DNA of 64,000 bases from Pseudomonadaceae bacterium (GTDB lineage Bacteria > Pseudomonadota > Gammaproteobacteria > Pseudomonadales > Azotimanducaceae): the NCBI GenBank assembly GCA_024743175.1, contig JANSXA010000002.1, forward strand, positions 186,001 through 250,000, in the 5' to 3' direction. The notes beneath the pieces are model-generated. The model was not told where the DNA came from and did not search any database. It saw only the letters and a list, made by a program, of their open reading frames with translations. The translations under genes and the position numbers were made by a program. The stretch's first letter is position 1; every line of letters starts with the position of its first letter. Below, in pieces: positions 24,081 through 30,917 of this stretch.

Positions 24081-25289
24081 ATGCCCACAGCTGAAACCAC
24101 CATGTCGCGCCGCCTGCATACACCAGGCGCACAGGGATGGAACCGTACCGCCCACCCTGACGATCCAAACAAGTACTTCATTGTCTCTGCTGACTGTCAT
24201 GCCAATGAACCCAAAGACTGGGTTAAATCCCGCATCTCGGATGAGTATCGAAAACGTCTGCCAAGACTTGAGATGGTCGATGGCCAGGCGTTTATCATCA
24301 CCGAAGGCAATCGCCCCTGGAAAATCAAAACCGATACCACCGATTGGGGCGAAGATGACATTGAACGCAACAAAACCGGTCGCAACGTTGCGGAGCGATT
24401 GCGAGATCAGGACCGGGACGGCATCGACGTTGAAGTGGTCTTCGGTAACAAAGGCATTCACGCCTTTGGCACAAACGATCCCGGCTTTTCCATGGCCATG
24501 TGCCAGGCATGGAATGATTGGGCCCACGAAGATCTGGGTGAGCACCAGGACCGCATTCTGCCCATGGCGCAAATCCCAACGCTGGATGTAGACGCGGCGG
24601 TGAAAGAAGTGCAACGGGTAGCCAGGCTTGGTTTTAAAGGTCTGACTATCCCGGTGAAGCCGGAATATGGCCCTACCGGCATGGACCAGCGCAACTACAA
24701 CCAACCCGAGTTTGAACCCTTGTGGTCTGCGATTGAAGATGTGGATCTGCCATTGACCATCCATGTGTCTACCGGCCGTGACCCTCGAGCGGCATCTGGC
24801 CCGGGTGGTGCGGTCATCAACTACGCTGTGCACTGTTGTTCAGCCAGTCAGGAGCCAGTGGCAAATCTTTGCGCCTCAGGCGTTCTGGAACGGCATCCCA
24901 AGCTCAGGGTTGCAACTATCGAGGCAGGTATCGGCTGGGTTTCCTGGTTACTGGAAGTCATGGACGAAGGCTTTTATAAACACCGTATGTGGGTCTCTCC
25001 GGATCTCAAGGAACCCCCCAGCTACTACTACCGAAGGCAGATGTTCGCGTCCTTCGGTGAGGATCAATCCGGCCTGGATCTGGCTGTGAAGCATGATCTG
25101 ATCGATAACTTCATGTGGGCTAACGACTATCCACATCATGAAGGCACCTGGCCACACTCTGCAGCAGCCATCGAACGCACAATGGCTGATCTCACCGACG
25201 AGCAACGTGCCAAAGTGCTGGGGCTTAATGCGGCTCGTTTCTGGAACATCGATATCCCAGCCGAATACCAAGCCACAGGTAACAGCTGA
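24081..25289 (+). CDS. Amidohydrolase-2 (ACMSD-like) family protein
   Basis: A 402-residue metal-dependent TIM-barrel hydrolase or decarboxylase. Near residue 35 it has FIVSADCHANEPKDW, the N-terminal metal-ligand strand of the amidohydrolase-related family; later it has LPLTIHVSTGRDPRA and NFMWANDYPHHEGTWPHS, where the conserved Asp-Tyr-Pro-His carries a metal ligand. Relatives cleave or decarboxylate ring-fission products and carboxylated intermediates. It is 50% or more alike by eye in motifs to the gene at 26959, so the cluster contains a paralogous pair. The stop overlaps the next start (TGATG). Exact reaction unknown. Confidence 0.8.
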   Translation: MPTAETTMSRRLHTPGAQGWNRTAHPDDPNKYFIVSADCHANEPKDWVKSRISDEYRKRLPRLEMVDGQAFIITEGNRPWKIKTDTTDWGEDDIERNKTGRNVAERLRDQDRDGIDVEVVFGNKGIHAFGTNDPGFSMAMCQAWNDWAHEDLGEHQDRILPMAQIPTLDVDAAVKEVQRVARLGFKGLTIPVKPEYGPTGMDQRNYNQPEFEPLWSAIEDVDLPLTIHVSTGRDPRAASGPGGAVINYAVHCCSASQEPVANLCASGVLERHPKLRVATIEAGIGWVSWLLEVMDEGFYKHRMWVSPDLKEPPSYYYRRQMFASFGEDQSGLDLAVKHDLIDNFMWANDYPHHEGTWPHSAAAIERTMADLTDEQRAKVLGLNAARFWNIDIPAEYQATGNS

Positions 25290-26491
25290 TGTCACTTAAA
25301 GGTGCTGCCGCGGTGGTGGGTATTGCTGAACTTGCACCACAACGCTACACAGGTGATGCATCCATCCTCGACCTGCTGAGCCAGGTGGGCGCAGAGGCCA
25401 TAGCGGATGCTGGCTTTAAACATGCAGACATAGACGGGCTGGTGGTTCATCCCATTGGCGGGTTGCCCGGTTTTGTGCCCGCCACTGTGGCTGAGTACCT
25501 AGGCATAAAACCCACCTTTGCGGAACTGGTAGACCTGGGCGGTGCAACAGGCGCTGGTATGGTCTGGCGTGCAGCCGCTGCAATTCAGGCGGGCATGTGT
25601 ACAACCTGTTTGTGCTTAACCGGCACCCGCCGCCGAGGCAGGCCTCAAAATCGTAAGCAACAGAACACGGAACGACCGCCGCCTCGTTCTATAGCACCGA
25701 CCCGTGATCGTTCACCCGCTGCAGAATTTGATTCGCCTTATGGCATGGTGGGAGCCAACGTGGGTTATGCCATGATTGCCACGCGCTATACTCACGAATA
25801 TGGTCTGCAAGATACACAACGCGCAAAAGTTGCTGTCGACCAGCGTAAGAACGCCAATGCTAATCCAAAAGCTTTTTTCCACGACCAGCAACTGACCATC
25901 GATGATGTTTTGTCTTCCGAGGTCATATGCCAACCGCTGCACATGCTGGAAATTGTCATGCCAGCGGCGGGTGCAGCTGCGCTTATTGTCACCGCTGCTG
26001 ATCGGGTACCAGATGCAAAGCAAAAGCCTGCCTGGATCCTTGGCGCTGGTGAATCGGTGACCCATTCATCTTTTGCGCAGGCGCCGAACCTGGACGCCAC
26101 TGGCATTGGCATCGCCTCACGCGCTGCATTCAATATGGCGGATGTTAAACCCGGCGATATGGGTCTGGCTTCTTTATATGATTGCTACACCATCATGGTG
26201 CTCTTAACTTTAGAGGAAGCGGGCTTTGTACCGCGCGGTGAAGCCGGGGCGTTTGTAGAATCCCATGATTTAACCTGGGCAGGCGACTTCCCTCTCAATA
26301 CTCATGGCGGGCAATTGAGCTTTGGTCAGGCAGGGATGGCCGGCGGCATGAGCCATGTCACTGAAGCTGCCCGTCAGATCCAGGGCAGGTGCGGTGAACG
26401 GCAGGTACCTGGATTAGAGCTGGCGTACGCGCACGGTAATGGCGGTATCATCGCAGAACAGACCGGGCTGGTTTTTGGAGCCAGCCGATGA
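25289..26491 (+). CDS. Thiolase-fold lipid-transfer (Ltp/SCPx-like) protein
   Basis: A 400-residue thiolase-superfamily protein. VVGIAELAPQRYTGDASILDLL begins the fold. At the place where thiolases carry the nucleophilic Cys it reads VDLGGATGAGMV, so that Cys is missing. Later parts include SLYDCYTIMVLLTLEEAGF and LNTHGGQLSFGQAG, the His-Gly-Gly loop. Cys-less members that pair with a DUF35 protein (Ltp2-ChsH2 type) act as retro-aldolases on acyl-CoA side chains rather than as thiolases; the adjacent DUF35 gene, overlapping by 4 bases, supports this reading. Substrate class (steroid, terpenoid or branched acyl-CoA) is inferred. Confidence 0.8.
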   Translation: MSLKGAAAVVGIAELAPQRYTGDASILDLLSQVGAEAIADAGFKHADIDGLVVHPIGGLPGFVPATVAEYLGIKPTFAELVDLGGATGAGMVWRAAAAIQAGMCTTCLCLTGTRRRGRPQNRKQQNTERPPPRSIAPTRDRSPAAEFDSPYGMVGANVGYAMIATRYTHEYGLQDTQRAKVAVDQRKNANANPKAFFHDQQLTIDDVLSSEVICQPLHMLEIVMPAAGAAALIVTAADRVPDAKQKPAWILGAGESVTHSSFAQAPNLDATGIGIASRAAFNMADVKPGDMGLASLYDCYTIMVLLTLEEAGFVPRGEAGAFVESHDLTWAGDFPLNTHGGQLSFGQAGMAGGMSHVTEAARQIQGRCGERQVPGLELAYAHGNGGIIAEQTGLVFGASR

Positions 26492-26892
26492 GCGCACGTG
26501 TGATCCCGCCGATATCACCTACCACACAACCTTACTGGGAGGGTGCTGCGCGTGGGGAGTTAATGCTGCAGCAATGTAGCGCCTGCGGTCAGCGACCCTT
26601 TCCACCGCATACTCATTGTGAGAAATGTGGCTCAGCTGAATTAGCCTGGCAAGCTGCCAGCGGCAAGGGCACGATTTATACCTACACCATTTCTTATCGA
26701 GCGCCACATCCTGTTTTTCGTGATCAATGCCCTATGGTTATCGCGGTGGTAGAACTCGACGAAGGTCCGCGTCTGATGACCAACATCATTGAGTGTGATC
26801 CCGAGCATGTTGCTGTCGGTATGGCGGTGGAAGCGGCTTTTGAAAAGATTGATGACAGTGATGTTGTGCTGCCCGTATTCAGGCTGGTCTGA
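26488..26892 (+). CDS. DUF35 zinc-ribbon/OB-fold partner protein
   Basis: A 134-residue protein. The N-terminal zinc ribbon has CSACGQRPFPPHTHCEKCG (two CxxC pairs), followed by an OB fold with GKGTIYTYTISYRAPHP and CPMVIAVVELDEGPRLMTN. DUF35 proteins bind thiolase-like enzymes and may hold the acyl-CoA. The gene overlaps the thiolase-fold gene by ATGA, so the two are almost certainly subunits of one complex. Confidence 0.88.
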   Translation: MSARVIPPISPTTQPYWEGAARGELMLQQCSACGQRPFPPHTHCEKCGSAELAWQAASGKGTIYTYTISYRAPHPVFRDQCPMVIAVVELDEGPRLMTNIIECDPEHVAVGMAVEAAFEKIDDSDVVLPVFRLV

Positions 26893-26958
26893 GTCGTGAC
26901 GGGCCGTCATTTATTCGACGGGCGAATTCTTATCAGCGAAACAGATTAGGGAGATAAC

Positions 26959-28215
26959 GTGACAGAAGTAAGCGAGCGGGAAGCCGAGCTACTGGCGGCG
27001 CAGGCATGGCGCACGGAAACGCCAGGGCACCAGGAATGGACTCGAACGGTCCGTCCCGATGACCGCAACAAATACTACGTTATTTCCGCCGACTGCCATG
27101 CCATCGAGCCAAAAGACTGGATGGCCGGCTACATCAGCGATGATGTGCGCGAGCAGTTAAAACAGCGACGCGCGCGCCGCGACCAGGAAATGGACCGGGA
27201 ACGCGCGGAGGGTGTACGTGAACCGAAAGCCGAGGAAGGAAAAAAGGAATCTTCTGTACCCTCCCACCTCCTCGACCGCAACAGGATGGCAGGGGAAGAT
27301 TTAGAGCGCTTGCTGTCGGGCCGGTACGCCGACAAACGTGTGACAGACAATGCTCGGGATGGGGTTGATGCAGAAATTATTTTCCCGGGCGCAGCTTTTT
27401 TAGCCGCCCAGATAGCGAACGATGATCCAGCACTGGCCATGCGCTTCTGTGAAGGTTGGAACAACTGGGCCAGGGATTGGTACAACGATTATTGGGATGT
27501 GCAATATCCCATGGCGTTTATCACCACTACCGATGTCGCCGCCGCGGTCTCTGAAATCGAACGAGTAGCTGCACTGGGTTTTCGCGGTGTTTGTCTACCT
27601 AACAAACCGGTTTACGGGCCCCAGCCTCCCCGGGAGCGAAATTACAACCTGCCGGAGTTTGATCCGATCTGGGCAGCACTGCAGGACACCAATATGCCCG
27701 CCACATTCCATGTCAGCACCGGGCGCAATCCCACCACCGCAAGAGGACCGGGTGGCGCAGTTGCAAATTATGTTTCGCACTGCTGCACCACGAATATTGA
27801 GCCGCTGGTACTGCTCTGCGCCTCGGGAATTTGTGAACGCTTCCCCAAATTGAGATTTGCTGTCGTAGAATCCGGCATTGGCTGGGTATCATGGTCACTG
27901 GAAGCTATGGATGAGGCTTATCGGAAACATCACATGTGGGCAAAACCGAAGTTGCCGGAACTGCCGAGCTATTATTTCAAACGCCAGGGTTATGCCACCT
28001 TCGGTGAAGACAGATCTGGCCTGGCGGTCGCTGCTGAATTTGATCTGATTGACAATTTCTGTTGGGCCAGTGATTACCCTCATCCGGAAGGATCCTGGCC
28101 ACATTCACCGGAAGCTATCGAACGGCAAATGCAACGCCTGACAGACTTAGAGCGGGAAAAAATTCTGGGTGGTAATGCAGCGCGTTTGCTCGGCATAGAG
28201 CTCCCCAACAAGTAA
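26959..28215 (+). CDS. Second amidohydrolase-2 family protein (paralogue)
   Basis: A 418-residue protein with a GTG start after AGGGAGA. It shares the motif set of the gene at 24081: YYVISADCHAIEPKDW, MPATFHVSTGRNPTTARGPG, NFCWASDYPHPEGSWPHS. It differs by a charged insert near residues 70-100 (RRARRDQEMDRERAEG). The pair may act on successive or stereoisomeric intermediates, or form a heteromer. Position between the thiolase/DUF35 pair and the P450 argues for the same pathway. Reaction unknown. Confidence 0.8.
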   Translation: MTEVSEREAELLAAQAWRTETPGHQEWTRTVRPDDRNKYYVISADCHAIEPKDWMAGYISDDVREQLKQRRARRDQEMDRERAEGVREPKAEEGKKESSVPSHLLDRNRMAGEDLERLLSGRYADKRVTDNARDGVDAEIIFPGAAFLAAQIANDDPALAMRFCEGWNNWARDWYNDYWDVQYPMAFITTTDVAAAVSEIERVAALGFRGVCLPNKPVYGPQPPRERNYNLPEFDPIWAALQDTNMPATFHVSTGRNPTTARGPGGAVANYVSHCCTTNIEPLVLLCASGICERFPKLRFAVVESGIGWVSWSLEAMDEAYRKHHMWAKPKLPELPSYYFKRQGYATFGEDRSGLAVAAEFDLIDNFCWASDYPHPEGSWPHSPEAIERQMQRLTDLEREKILGGNAARLLGIELPNK

Positions 28216-28236
28216 CTAAATAGGAAGTATAAAGTA

Positions 28237-29493
28237 ATGAACGTAAAAACAGATTCGGATGCGAGCGCGATTGCACTTGACCAGATAGACGTCAGCAAGC
28301 CGGACCTCTATGGGAACGATATCTGGCAACCCTACTTTGCCCGGCTGCGCAAAGAGGCACCGGTTCATTTCCAGCCCGAAAGTTCAACCGGACCTTTCTG
28401 GTCGGTTTCCAGTCACGAACTGATCAAAGAAGTCGACACCAACCATCAGGTGTTTTCCTCTGAAAAAGGGGGTATCGCCATCGTTGATCCAGTGCCGGTG
28501 GAAGGGCAACTGGAGAATAAGAGTTTTATCGGCATGGACGAACCAAACCATTCCAAACAGCGCCGGGTAGTCTCACCAACCGTTGCACCCAAAAACCTGG
28601 CTGAGTTCGAACCTCTGATCCGAGAACGTGCTGCAGATATTCTTGATAACCTGCCCGTAGGTGAGACGTTCAACTGGGTAGACCGGGTATCTGTAGAACT
28701 TACGGCTCGCATGTTGGCCACCTTGTTTGATTTTCCGTACGAGGATCGTCGCAAGCTGGTGTATTGGTCTGACATCACCACCGCGGTTCCGGAAGTGACC
28801 GGCGATGACAGCATTGATATGGACACCCGCTACCAGGAACTGATGGAGTGCGCGGGTGCGTTCTACCAGTTGTGGACGGCGAAACAAGGTCAGCCGCCTT
28901 CGTTTGATCTGATCTCCATGCTTCAGAACAATCCCGAAACAGCCAAAATGAATGAAGATCCGGCGCTTTTTCTGGGCAATATTCTGCTCCTGATCGTCGG
29001 CGGCAACGACACCACGCGCAACAGCATCAGCGGTGGTGTTGTAGGTTTGAATAAGTACCCCGATGAATATCAGAAACTGCGCGACAATCCTGAACTGATT
29101 CCCAACATGGTGGCAGAAATGGTGCGCTGGCAGACGCCGGTCATACACATGCGCCGTACAGCGTTAGAGGACTACAAGCTTGGCGGTCAACAGATCAAGG
29201 CAGGCGATAAGGTGGTGATGTGGTACCTGTCAGGTAATCGTGATGAATCCGTGTTTGAAGATGCCGATCGGCTCATCATTGACAGGCCAAACGCCCGTGC
29301 CCACGTGGCTTTCGGTTTTGGCGTACATCGCTGTATGGGTAACCGACTGGCAGAAATGCAGTTGCGCGTGCTTTGGGAGGAGATTATGAAACGCTTCCAT
29401 AAGGTGGAAGTTGTTGGTGCGGTAGAGCGTAACCCCAACAACTTCATTCGTGGCATCAAAGATGTACCTGTTAAATTACATCCGCTGTCGTGA
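28237..29493 (+). CDS. Cytochrome P450, CYP153-like
   Basis: A 418-residue soluble bacterial P450. Key parts: substrate-side VAPKNLAEFEPLIRERAADIL, the oxygen-binding I helix LLIVGGNDTTRNSISGG, EMVRWQTPVIHMRR, and the heme loop FGFGVHRCMGNRLAEMQ with Cys366 as iron ligand. The ordering and wording of these blocks resemble CYP153 alkane/terpene terminal hydroxylases, as does LRVLWEEIMKRFHKVEVVG near the end. No ferredoxin or reductase gene is beside it, so electrons must come from elsewhere. It probably makes the first oxygenation of the compound degraded by the cluster. AGGAAG precedes the ATG. Confidence 0.9.
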   Translation: MNVKTDSDASAIALDQIDVSKPDLYGNDIWQPYFARLRKEAPVHFQPESSTGPFWSVSSHELIKEVDTNHQVFSSEKGGIAIVDPVPVEGQLENKSFIGMDEPNHSKQRRVVSPTVAPKNLAEFEPLIRERAADILDNLPVGETFNWVDRVSVELTARMLATLFDFPYEDRRKLVYWSDITTAVPEVTGDDSIDMDTRYQELMECAGAFYQLWTAKQGQPPSFDLISMLQNNPETAKMNEDPALFLGNILLLIVGGNDTTRNSISGGVVGLNKYPDEYQKLRDNPELIPNMVAEMVRWQTPVIHMRRTALEDYKLGGQQIKAGDKVVMWYLSGNRDESVFEDADRLIIDRPNARAHVAFGFGVHRCMGNRLAEMQLRVLWEEIMKRFHKVEVVGAVERNPNNFIRGIKDVPVKLHPLS

Positions 29494-29552: not shown

Positions 29553-30197
29553 TCAACCCCGCGCCAGCCCGTATTGGTCCAGCCGCCAGCGCAATGTATC
29601 GATACGATCCTGGCCAAAGAATGGTTCATCCCGCACGACCATAGTGGGCACACCCCAGTGCCCTGCTTCTGCAAGCGCATGCTGATTAGCCTCCACTTCT
29701 GCAAGCTGATCGCCACCCTCGATGGCGGCGTCGAGCTCCTGTAGATTCAAGTCTGCTCGGGCCACTGCATTTTTCAGATGCTCACCCTGGTCCCACCCTT
29801 CGGTACCGCCGAAGATCAGCGCGGATACCTCGGTGATCAACTCGAGCCCTCGGCCGCAGCGTTGGGCTTCAACGCCGAGAGCACTGAGGCGGTGAATGTA
29901 AGGCTGTTCCGTGGCGACGGCCATGGTTCCGGCCTCCTGTACAATCGGATCCGGGCGCGGCCAGGCGAACGGCAGATCCAGGAACTCCGCGCGGCGTTTC
30001 GAGTCGCGCATGATGTAGAGAGACTTGCTGCGATTCGCAGAATTGAACAACAGCGATGGGTCACGGACAGCAATTGGATAGACGATGCGCACACGCACGT
30101 CCACATCGTAGTCATCGCGCAGGCGCTTGAGATCCGGGGTTACGAGATAGGAATAGGGGCTGCGGAACGACCAGTAGACGTCGACGGTTGCAGTCAT
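29553..30197 (-). CDS. DsbA-family / HCCA-isomerase-like protein
   Basis: A 214-residue thioredoxin-fold protein of the kappa-GST/2-hydroxychromene-2-carboxylate isomerase group: VYWSFRSPYSYLVTPDL carries Ser rather than Cys at the active position, and GHWGVPTMVVRDEPFFGQDRID is the family's C-terminal signature. These proteins use glutathione for isomerisation or conjugation. It is convergent with the P450 gene and divergent from the selenoprotein gene. The actual substrate is unknown. Confidence 0.82.
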   Translation of the reverse strand: MTATVDVYWSFRSPYSYLVTPDLKRLRDDYDVDVRVRIVYPIAVRDPSLLFNSANRSKSLYIMRDSKRRAEFLDLPFAWPRPDPIVQEAGTMAVATEQPYIHRLSALGVEAQRCGRGLELITEVSALIFGGTEGWDQGEHLKNAVARADLNLQELDAAIEGGDQLAEVEANQHALAEAGHWGVPTMVVRDEPFFGQDRIDTLRWRLDQYGLARG

Positions 30198-30308
30198 TGA
30201 GTATGCCCTCGGGATAATTATCGCCTGTCATTCTGACATAATAATGGGTAGCATTATATTAATTCGATACACGGGTCCAAACAGATGACTGAACTTAAGG
30301 AGCACTTC

Positions 30309-30917
30309 ATGAGATTAGGACAGCAATCATCTAACTGGCTTCGCATACTGCGGCGCACCTTATTCGCGGGGGCCCTCGTCGGCATGTCTCAGTTTTCCCT
30401 GGCGGAATCCCAATACGCAGCCGCCTGGGGCCCAGGCGTTGGCACCACAGCACCGCTGTTGGCCGCCGCTGACCAGGACGGTAACGACCAGTCCCTGGAG
30501 ACGCTGACAAGGTCCAACGGTTTGTTGTTTGTATTCAATCGTTCCGTTGACTGGTGACCCTTCTGTATTCGTCAGTTCGTGAAACTGAATGACATTACAG
30601 ACAAATTCGAGGCCATCGGCGTAGGCGTCGTTGGCATGACTTACGACAAACCGGAAATCATCGAAGCCTTTCATGAAAAATGGGACATAGAATTCCCGGT
30701 GTTACGAGATGTGGATCGTCAGCATGTGGAAGCCTGGGGAATCCGCAACGAGGAATATGGTCCAGGCACTTTTGCCTACGGTGTCCCCCATCCGGGTGTG
30801 GTGCTGCTTTCGCCCGAAGGCAAAATTCTCGCCAAGTGGGCGGAAAAGGGCTATCGATCTCGCGCAGATTGGTCCGAGGTCCTGGATGAGGTTCAAAGCA
30901 TCGTGGGTGGCGAGTAG
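30309..30917 (+). CDS. Probable selenoprotein: AhpC/TSA (peroxiredoxin-like) with in-frame TGA
   Basis: One reading frame of 202 residues interrupted only by TGA at 30555-30557; the codons before and after are in the same frame. The TGA falls in SVDW-TGA-PFCIRQF, exactly where relatives have the first Cys of the DWCPFC redox motif, so the product would be U83-x-x-C86. Downstream sequence is fully family-like (GVGVVGMTYDKPEIIEAF, VLRDVDRQHVEAWGIRNEEYG, HPGVVLLSPEGKILAKW) and shows no decay. A signal peptide (LRRTLFAGALVGMSQFSLAE) suggests periplasmic export. Start chosen from AAGGAG 6 bases ahead of ATG 30309. A SECIS-like hairpin follows the TGA. The alternative, a nonsense pseudogene, is less likely. 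No selA/selB/selC lies in the window. Confidence 0.8.
30562..30601 (+). promoter_or_regulatory. Candidate bacterial SECIS hairpin
   Basis: Immediately downstream of the in-frame TGA, TCTGTA (30562-30567) can pair with TACAGA (30596-30601), and CAGTT (30573-30577) with AACTG (30583-30587), leaving apical loop CGTGA with G at its second position. The loop begins about 20 nt after the TGA. Bacterial SECIS elements are short stem-loops starting right after UGA, with the loop some 16-37 nt downstream and a G among its first two bases, so this fits. The two stems are separated by a bulge. Folding energy not computed. Confidence 0.6.

Follow-up and report, generated by a model that had tools for sequence, protein, structure and literature searches.

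How is a gene to be read whose frame runs through 202 residues and is broken once, by a TGA, inside its redox motif? This question arises at positions 30309-30917 of the window, by which we mean the whole 64-kb stretch of DNA that was analysed; the sole interruption there is the TGA at 30555-30557, in the motif DW-U-PFC (UxxC, where U is selenocysteine, Sec). We find that this is very probably a real selenoprotein gene and, as comparison with relatives indicates, that the UGA is almost certainly read as selenocysteine. Our whole account, in which an exported AhpC/TSA selenoprotein acquires Sec through SelB and a hairpin, performs thiol(selenol):disulfide exchange and has the product of the neighbouring gene as a partner, we place at a probability of about 0.88.

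The gene, its frame and its relatives

Features of the locus:
30233-30260, plus strand: weak sigma-70-like promoter match CTGACA-16-TATATT (two found in the region against 1.2 expected)
30297-30302, plus strand: Shine-Dalgarno-like AAGGAG, read from the sequence, 6 nt 5' of the ATG at 30309
30309-30917, plus strand: probable selenoprotein gene, 202 residues including Sec83, AhpC/TSA fold (PF00578), stop codon TAG at 30915-30917
30309-30404, plus strand: probable cleavable signal peptide, residues 1-32, suggested by the hydrophobic stretch LFAGALVGMSQFSLA with Ala32 at the end
30555-30557, plus strand: UGA, almost certainly the Sec codon (U83 of UPFC); 103 of the 104 copies have TGA, outside relatives a Cys codon
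30564-30566, plus strand: partner Cys86 of UxxC, invariant in 26 of 26 rows of alignment A1
30572-30588, plus strand: SECIS hairpin, stem 30572-30577/30583-30588, loop CGUGA 30578-30582 with G30579 and U30580
30944-31357, plus strand: conserved downstream gene for a 137-aa protein, probable operon partner, after a gap of 26 nt; found in 28 of 31 orthologue-clade loci

The sequence-only reading had placed the TGA within one open frame with a conserved downstream part, and this stands: frame, motif and coordinates are as described, and in all 11 relatives from named genomes (64-80% identity) TGA occupies the same codon and the frame reads on past it. By taxon these are four Pseudomonadales, five Gammaproteobacteria, one Alphaproteobacteria and the marine gamma proteobacterium HTCC2089; the match at locus L030 covers residues 1-167 only and lies at a contig end. 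Since the standard code (table 11) splits the gene into a 90-aa ORF (30285-30557) and a 112-aa ORF (30579-30917), and the read-through product still falls short of the cut-off of every NCBIfam model, such genes are easily missed.

Within its own GTDB family the protein is found at E<=1e-15 in 154 of 200 sampled genomes and 31 of 37 genera. The site was read in part of those 154 genomes, and among the matches listed, down to about E 1e-29, all but one (in genome G016) have the in-frame TGA. In all, the site was read in 104 copies from 102 loci, of which 103 have TGA and one has TGG; these copies include repeats of the same genome and amount to 93 distinct 150-nt stretches, the TGG copy counted. 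That copy (L122) has TAG and TAA elsewhere and keeps the SECIS hairpin, and a search of G016 for selB gave nothing over the cut-off; with its two stops and no selB above threshold, it looks decayed. It is the only case of the downstream decay by which a pseudogene might have been recognized among the relatives read.

The host genome contains just two copies of the family at E<=1e-15, the second (C14:439769-440275) sharing 42% identity and having its TGA in the corresponding position. Elsewhere, loci L093 and L098 (genus code g8) each have two family copies side by side on one strand; TGA is present in both, and the second has WUGSC in place of WUPYC. In the window itself, a DsbA-like thioredoxin-domain protein (PF01323, 68.6 bits) is encoded upstream on the opposite strand (29553-30197, minus); L021 has a 77% relative close to its Sec gene, and L087 and L095 have weak 24% matches only. 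Two amidohydrolase-2 genes, a thiolase-like gene, a small ORF and a cytochrome P450 gene at 24081-29493 resemble a catabolic cluster.

The hairpin and the selenocysteine machinery

A SECIS-like hairpin with an apical G had been proposed at the right distance from the TGA, and it was borne out by fold, published constraints, covariation and codon invariance. First of all, the 17-nt element has a loop of 5 nt, a stem of 6 bp, a G at loop position 2 and a spacing of 20 nt from the TGA; the folding energy is -12.2 kcal/mol for 51 nt (z -2.59). It thus lies within all the bacterial SECIS constraints quoted in the accessible part of PMC13188914, namely a loop of 3-9 nt, a stem of 4-16 bp, a G in the first two loop positions, a spacing of 16-37 nt and an MFE <= -7.5.

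Second, covariation confirms a bacterial SECIS. In a gap-free alignment of 86 distinct 48-nt stretches (repeats, the TGG copy and stretches with N left out), a six-pair stem and a five-base NGUNN loop leave 99.0% of cells paired. Two-sided changes at three pairs fill 105 cells, where shuffling gives 32.7 and none of 500 shuffles comes as high, and the covariation score of 0.504 compares with 0.184 after shuffling and no more than 0.154 in slid controls; two of the five measures, the number of pairs with two-sided change and the number of pair types, are not above shuffles, and the remaining three are inflated by the relatedness of the sequences. The outermost pair occurs as CG in 32, UA in 27, GC in 13, AU in 10 and GU/UG in 3 stretches and is unpaired in 1, so that all four Watson-Crick combinations are present, in 82 of 86 stretches; all 86 stretches have G as their second loop base, and 84 have U as the third.

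Third, the six hairpin codons are invariant in 17 orthologues (17 of 18, L041 having been dropped), as against none of the 46 other conserved codons. The full hairpin with its GU loop also follows the state of the site, taking one match per locus and leaving aside the fusion proteins in L194-L196, as do the site-state and tree counts below: among 101 distinct Sec and 25 distinct non-Sec sequences it is found in 87 of the former, in 0 of 24 distinct Cys/Ser sequences and in the TGG copy. At least five pairs with a GU loop are kept in 94 of the 101, and five of the other seven are the distant subfamilies L194-L198.

Rfam SECIS_1 gave no match in the host genome, where the control was silent too, and an Rfam scan of 30500-30700 returned no SECIS and two chance-level matches to unrelated families. 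Our SECIS model R1 has 16 matches at E<=10 in the host genome, led by the two family copies (1.6e-13 and 8.7e-12); the next, at E 0.048, begins at model position 13 and is without the TGA part, and the ORFs at one weak match (L156) showed nothing of note. The host may contain further selenoproteins, such as FdhA, that use a SECIS of another type.

Finally, selA, selB, selC and selD had been predicted for the host, and all four are present above curated cut-offs in its 4.72-Mb genome (18 contigs, 98% complete). selA (518.9 bits, cut-off 267.9) overlaps selB (424.3, cut-off 242.25) by 4 bases, tRNA-Sec (selC; 71.7, cut-off 47) lies directly behind selB in the same cluster, and selD (270.9, cut-off 125) is about 11 kb from it. 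SelB bound to the hairpin at 30572-30588 would bring Sec-tRNA to the UGA at 30555, giving an active site D-W-Sec-P-F-C.

How selB is distributed relative to the site was compared in 35 genomes, 34 from outside the GTDB family plus G016. Outside the family it exceeds the cut-off in 7 of 7 genomes with the main Sec form and 3 of 3 with a distant Sec form; among non-Sec forms it does so in 5 of 25 (family code f123 Cys 4 of 5, family code f120 Cys 1 of 10, others 0 of 10). Within the family, 135 of 200 genomes have both selB (E<=1e-60) and the protein (E<=1e-15), 19 the protein only, 25 selB only and 21 neither, a positive association, though blurred by incomplete genomes, and incompleteness probably accounts for part of its being weaker than outside. 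Seven of the 19 selB-less genomes among the 154 with the protein are at least 90% complete (G016, G018, G104, G111, G172, G187 and G191), G016 being the only one of these with a decayed-looking copy; all 19 assemblies are multi-contig, so a missing match is not proven absence. In the 25 genomes with selB only, selB serves something else.

That the TGA is a real stop, leaving a broken gene or a short product and a remnant downstream, is hardly credible: the ORF does end at 30557 by table 11, but the downstream frame is conserved family-wide with TGA in 103 of 104 copies, the hairpin covaries, the Sec genes are present, and the one copy that looks decayed differs precisely in having TGG at the site and TAG and TAA elsewhere.

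Cysteine forms and the history of the site

Profile A1 (26 rows) was searched against samples of 398 genomes from the phylum, 390 from the order and 369 from the class. In the phylum sample, the seven matches from outside the GTDB family that score best (144-197 bits) all have Cys at the site, where the sequence-only reading had expected it. In the order sample, 43 of 390 genomes match at E<=1e-25, and the site is Sec in five and Cys in five of f123, Cys in ten, Ser in one and distant Sec in three of f120, Sec in one each of f91 and f126, and Cys in one of f119. The class sample gave no match at E<=1e-30 outside the host genome; a same-class match, of Cys form, is present in the phylum sample (G567). 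An in-frame UGA with the frame conserved on both sides is thus accompanied by Cys/Sec pairs among the homologues, two of the signs by which a bacterial selenoprotein is recognized.

These homologues also bear on the idea that a suppressor or an altered genetic code makes the UGA stand for Trp or Cys, for which the TGG of L122 could speak. It is highly improbable: the outside homologues have Cys, not Trp, the hairpin and selA/B/C/D are present, and, with 7 of 9 checked window genes that have Pfam support ending in TGA, UGA is an ordinary stop in this genome.

Selenocysteine thus being the preferred reading, we asked how it is distributed over a tree of 131 rows (107 Sec, 23 Cys, 1 Ser), built quickly with the site masked, with SH-aLRT support only and a midpoint root, and without L122, duplicate rows or rows shorter than 140 residues. 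The f120 rows (ten Cys, one Ser) and the five f123 Cys rows are nested within an otherwise-Sec clade, and the distant Sec forms L194-L198 branch outside the main clade on long branches. The Sec label needs four changes on this tree, of which starred branches force three. Two changes from Sec to Cys would most simply account for the two nested sets, with a direction that depends on the root; in the general survey of PMC1794560, as far as its accessible text goes, Cys-to-Sec changes are the commoner. Since selB is kept in 4 of 5 genomes of one Cys set, a switch from Sec to Cys there would not have been forced by loss of the machinery. We offer only tentatively, and at somewhat less than even odds, the broader picture of an exported redoxin lineage, ancestrally Sec-using across dozens of genera of Pseudomonadales-type bacteria, with at least two origins of Cys forms without SECIS, and in which, for the window's clade, the enzyme and an undescribed four-helix membrane protein make up a periplasmic relay that depends on selenium.

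In L197:998-2215 (G050, of the window's genus code), L198 (G022) and L194-L196, an AhpC/TSA domain with in-frame TGA and the motif WUPPC is fused to a DsbD N-terminal domain in open frames of about 410-430 aa; the domain run was made on L197 only, where Pfam DsbD_N scores 32.4 bits (cut-off 25). The fusion suggests possible electron exchange with a DsbD-like partner. L194, L195 and L196 (G912, G897 and G834, all three with selB over the cut-off) have two neighbouring in-frame-TGA redoxin genes on opposite strands, one for the longer WUPPC protein and one for an AhpC/TSA protein that has WUPYC and, at the N-terminus, hydrophobic stretches.

Fold, probable partner gene and known relatives

With Cys in place of Sec, the protein exceeds the Pfam cut-offs for AhpC-TSA (76.4 bits, cut-off 26) and Redoxin (42.9, cut-off 26.6). 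An AlphaFold model built with the same substitution, of moderate confidence (pLDDT 74.6, pTM 0.70), matches PrxQ/BCP and ResA structures with a target TM-score of about 0.7-0.8 in the leading matches. The best PDB matches are PrxQ/BCP proteins, 5iiz by structure (E 5.8e-11) and 2cx3 by sequence, and together with the Pfam domain they would fit a true peroxiredoxin, a selenium-dependent PrxQ/AhpE-type peroxidase with Sec as or beside the peroxidatic residue, a role for which Sec is excellent.

Peroxiredoxins proper have PxxxT/SxxC plus a conserved Arg. The alignment to 2cx3, on the other hand, places Sec83 at the T/S of TxxC, Cys86 rather than Sec83 at the peroxidatic Cys and Pro162 at an Arg; Pro is absent at the PxxxT place, and R78 and S79 stand near it. 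Over 129 Sec rows, repeats included, R78 is found in 127, S79 in 118, C86 in 129 and P162 in 126. In a contrast set of 27 rows, R is at 161 in 10 and at 162 in 3, and P at 162 in 9, but these rows are poorly aligned and gapped at this column, and the Arg comparison thus rests mainly on 2cx3. Known Sec-peroxiredoxins, moreover, have TxxU (PMC13188914, in the part available). The peroxiredoxin-defining residues thus appear to be replaced by a thioredoxin-like U/CxxC plus Pro, and a true peroxiredoxin seems to us unlikely.

The earlier claim of a periplasmic selenocysteine redox enzyme is upheld, refined only in that a redox enzyme of Prx-like fold describes it better than 'peroxiredoxin', given that the peroxidatic residues are replaced. 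Its periplasmic location is suggested by the hydrophobic N-terminus and by Ala32, which is invariant in 11 orthologues and would fit signal peptidase I. The evidence favours disulfide exchange over peroxidase activity, in line with the published name 'Prx-like thiol:disulfide oxidoreductase'; what we have is apparently an exported thiol:disulfide oxidoreductase of AhpC/TSA fold, for which we infer the substrate and the partner. In such an enzyme the Sec/Cys pair would be the thiol(selenol):disulfide exchange centre: Sec83 would attack a disulfide (or a peroxide or other oxidised substrate) and pass into a selenenyl-sulfide with Cys86, which a periplasmic electron donor would re-reduce.

The downstream gene, on the strand of the Sec gene and at a distance of 382-435 nt from the TGA, recurs in 28 of 31 orthologue-clade loci, which yield 19 distinct proteins; in the other three (L030, L047 and L051) the Sec-gene match itself is cut short. 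Its 137-aa product matches nothing in Pfam or NCBIfam at E<=1; an AlphaFold model of low confidence (pLDDT 65.9) has four helices, and 37 positions, C115 among them, are invariant in 11 sequences. It probably anchors the selenoprotein to the membrane or delivers electrons to it. It might instead be an unrelated neighbour, the selenoprotein acting alone as a soluble periplasmic reductase, as the paralogue at C14:439769-440275 may: the gene was seen at none of 71 loci of other clades, many only about 1.5 kb long, and the paralogue adjoins TRAP transporter genes instead (dctM 347 bits, TRAP_S1 276 bits, both over cut-off). Against this, the 28 loci agree in order, strand and a short gap, which is 26 nt here and 10-43 nt in 10 relatives, and we regard a chance neighbour as doubtful, if with a real share of the odds.

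With the partnership as our preferred reading, the protein can be set beside what is known. UxxC selenoproteins of PF00578 are already tabulated, in the accessible portions of these papers, for the GOS data, with 225 Sec and 2,740 Cys sequences of 'Prx-like 1' (PMC2398784), and in two reviews (PMC9312934, PMC13188914), and a Prx-like UXXC family was described in the Sargasso study (PMC1088965); the kind of protein is thus known, and the GOS sequences may well include the present family. In 2006, FdhA was named as the only selenoprotein in Pseudomonadales (PMC1794560, as available). A search with most subscription journals outside its reach found no paper linking HTCC2089 with selenocysteine and no title on this lineage. 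Perhaps new are the finding of a lineage of Pseudomonadales-type bacteria that mostly uses Sec, the two Cys subclades nested in it, which lack the hairpin, and the conserved gene downstream, whose product is predicted to be a membrane protein of four helices and which neither Pfam nor NCBIfam recognizes. The family includes close relatives that differ in having Sec or Cys at this position, some of them from genomes that retain selB, and this makes the role of Sec directly testable; the covarying natural bacterial SECIS is unusually clear and comes with a candidate membrane partner, and the Sec/Cys history of the family is informative.

Comparison with named systems places the protein as follows. 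The SelL-related redox proteins (NF040769) give a weak profile match of 43.4 bits, far under the cut-off of 120. ResA shares U/CxxC on a Prx/Trx-like fold and matches by sequence and structure; the score against its model (NF002854) is 44.3 bits against a cut-off of 170, and Sec here takes the place of Cys. Sec-peroxiredoxins (PF00578, TxxU) share the fold family but have Sec at the other end of the motif, whereas UxxC is found here and the catalytic residues are replaced. The nearest likeness is to the Prx-like thiol:disulfide oxidoreductase and 'Prx-like 1' of published tables, which, from the table entries available, we read as one family: PF00578 over its cut-off occurs here together with UxxC, as it does there, and the protein may be related to the reference sequence (WP_010940744.1). 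'Prx-like 1' in the GOS data, as far as these are tabulated in the part available, is far more often Cys than Sec, whereas the present clade is mostly Sec in our sample, has a conserved SECIS sequence of its own and, in the window's clade, has an operon partner.
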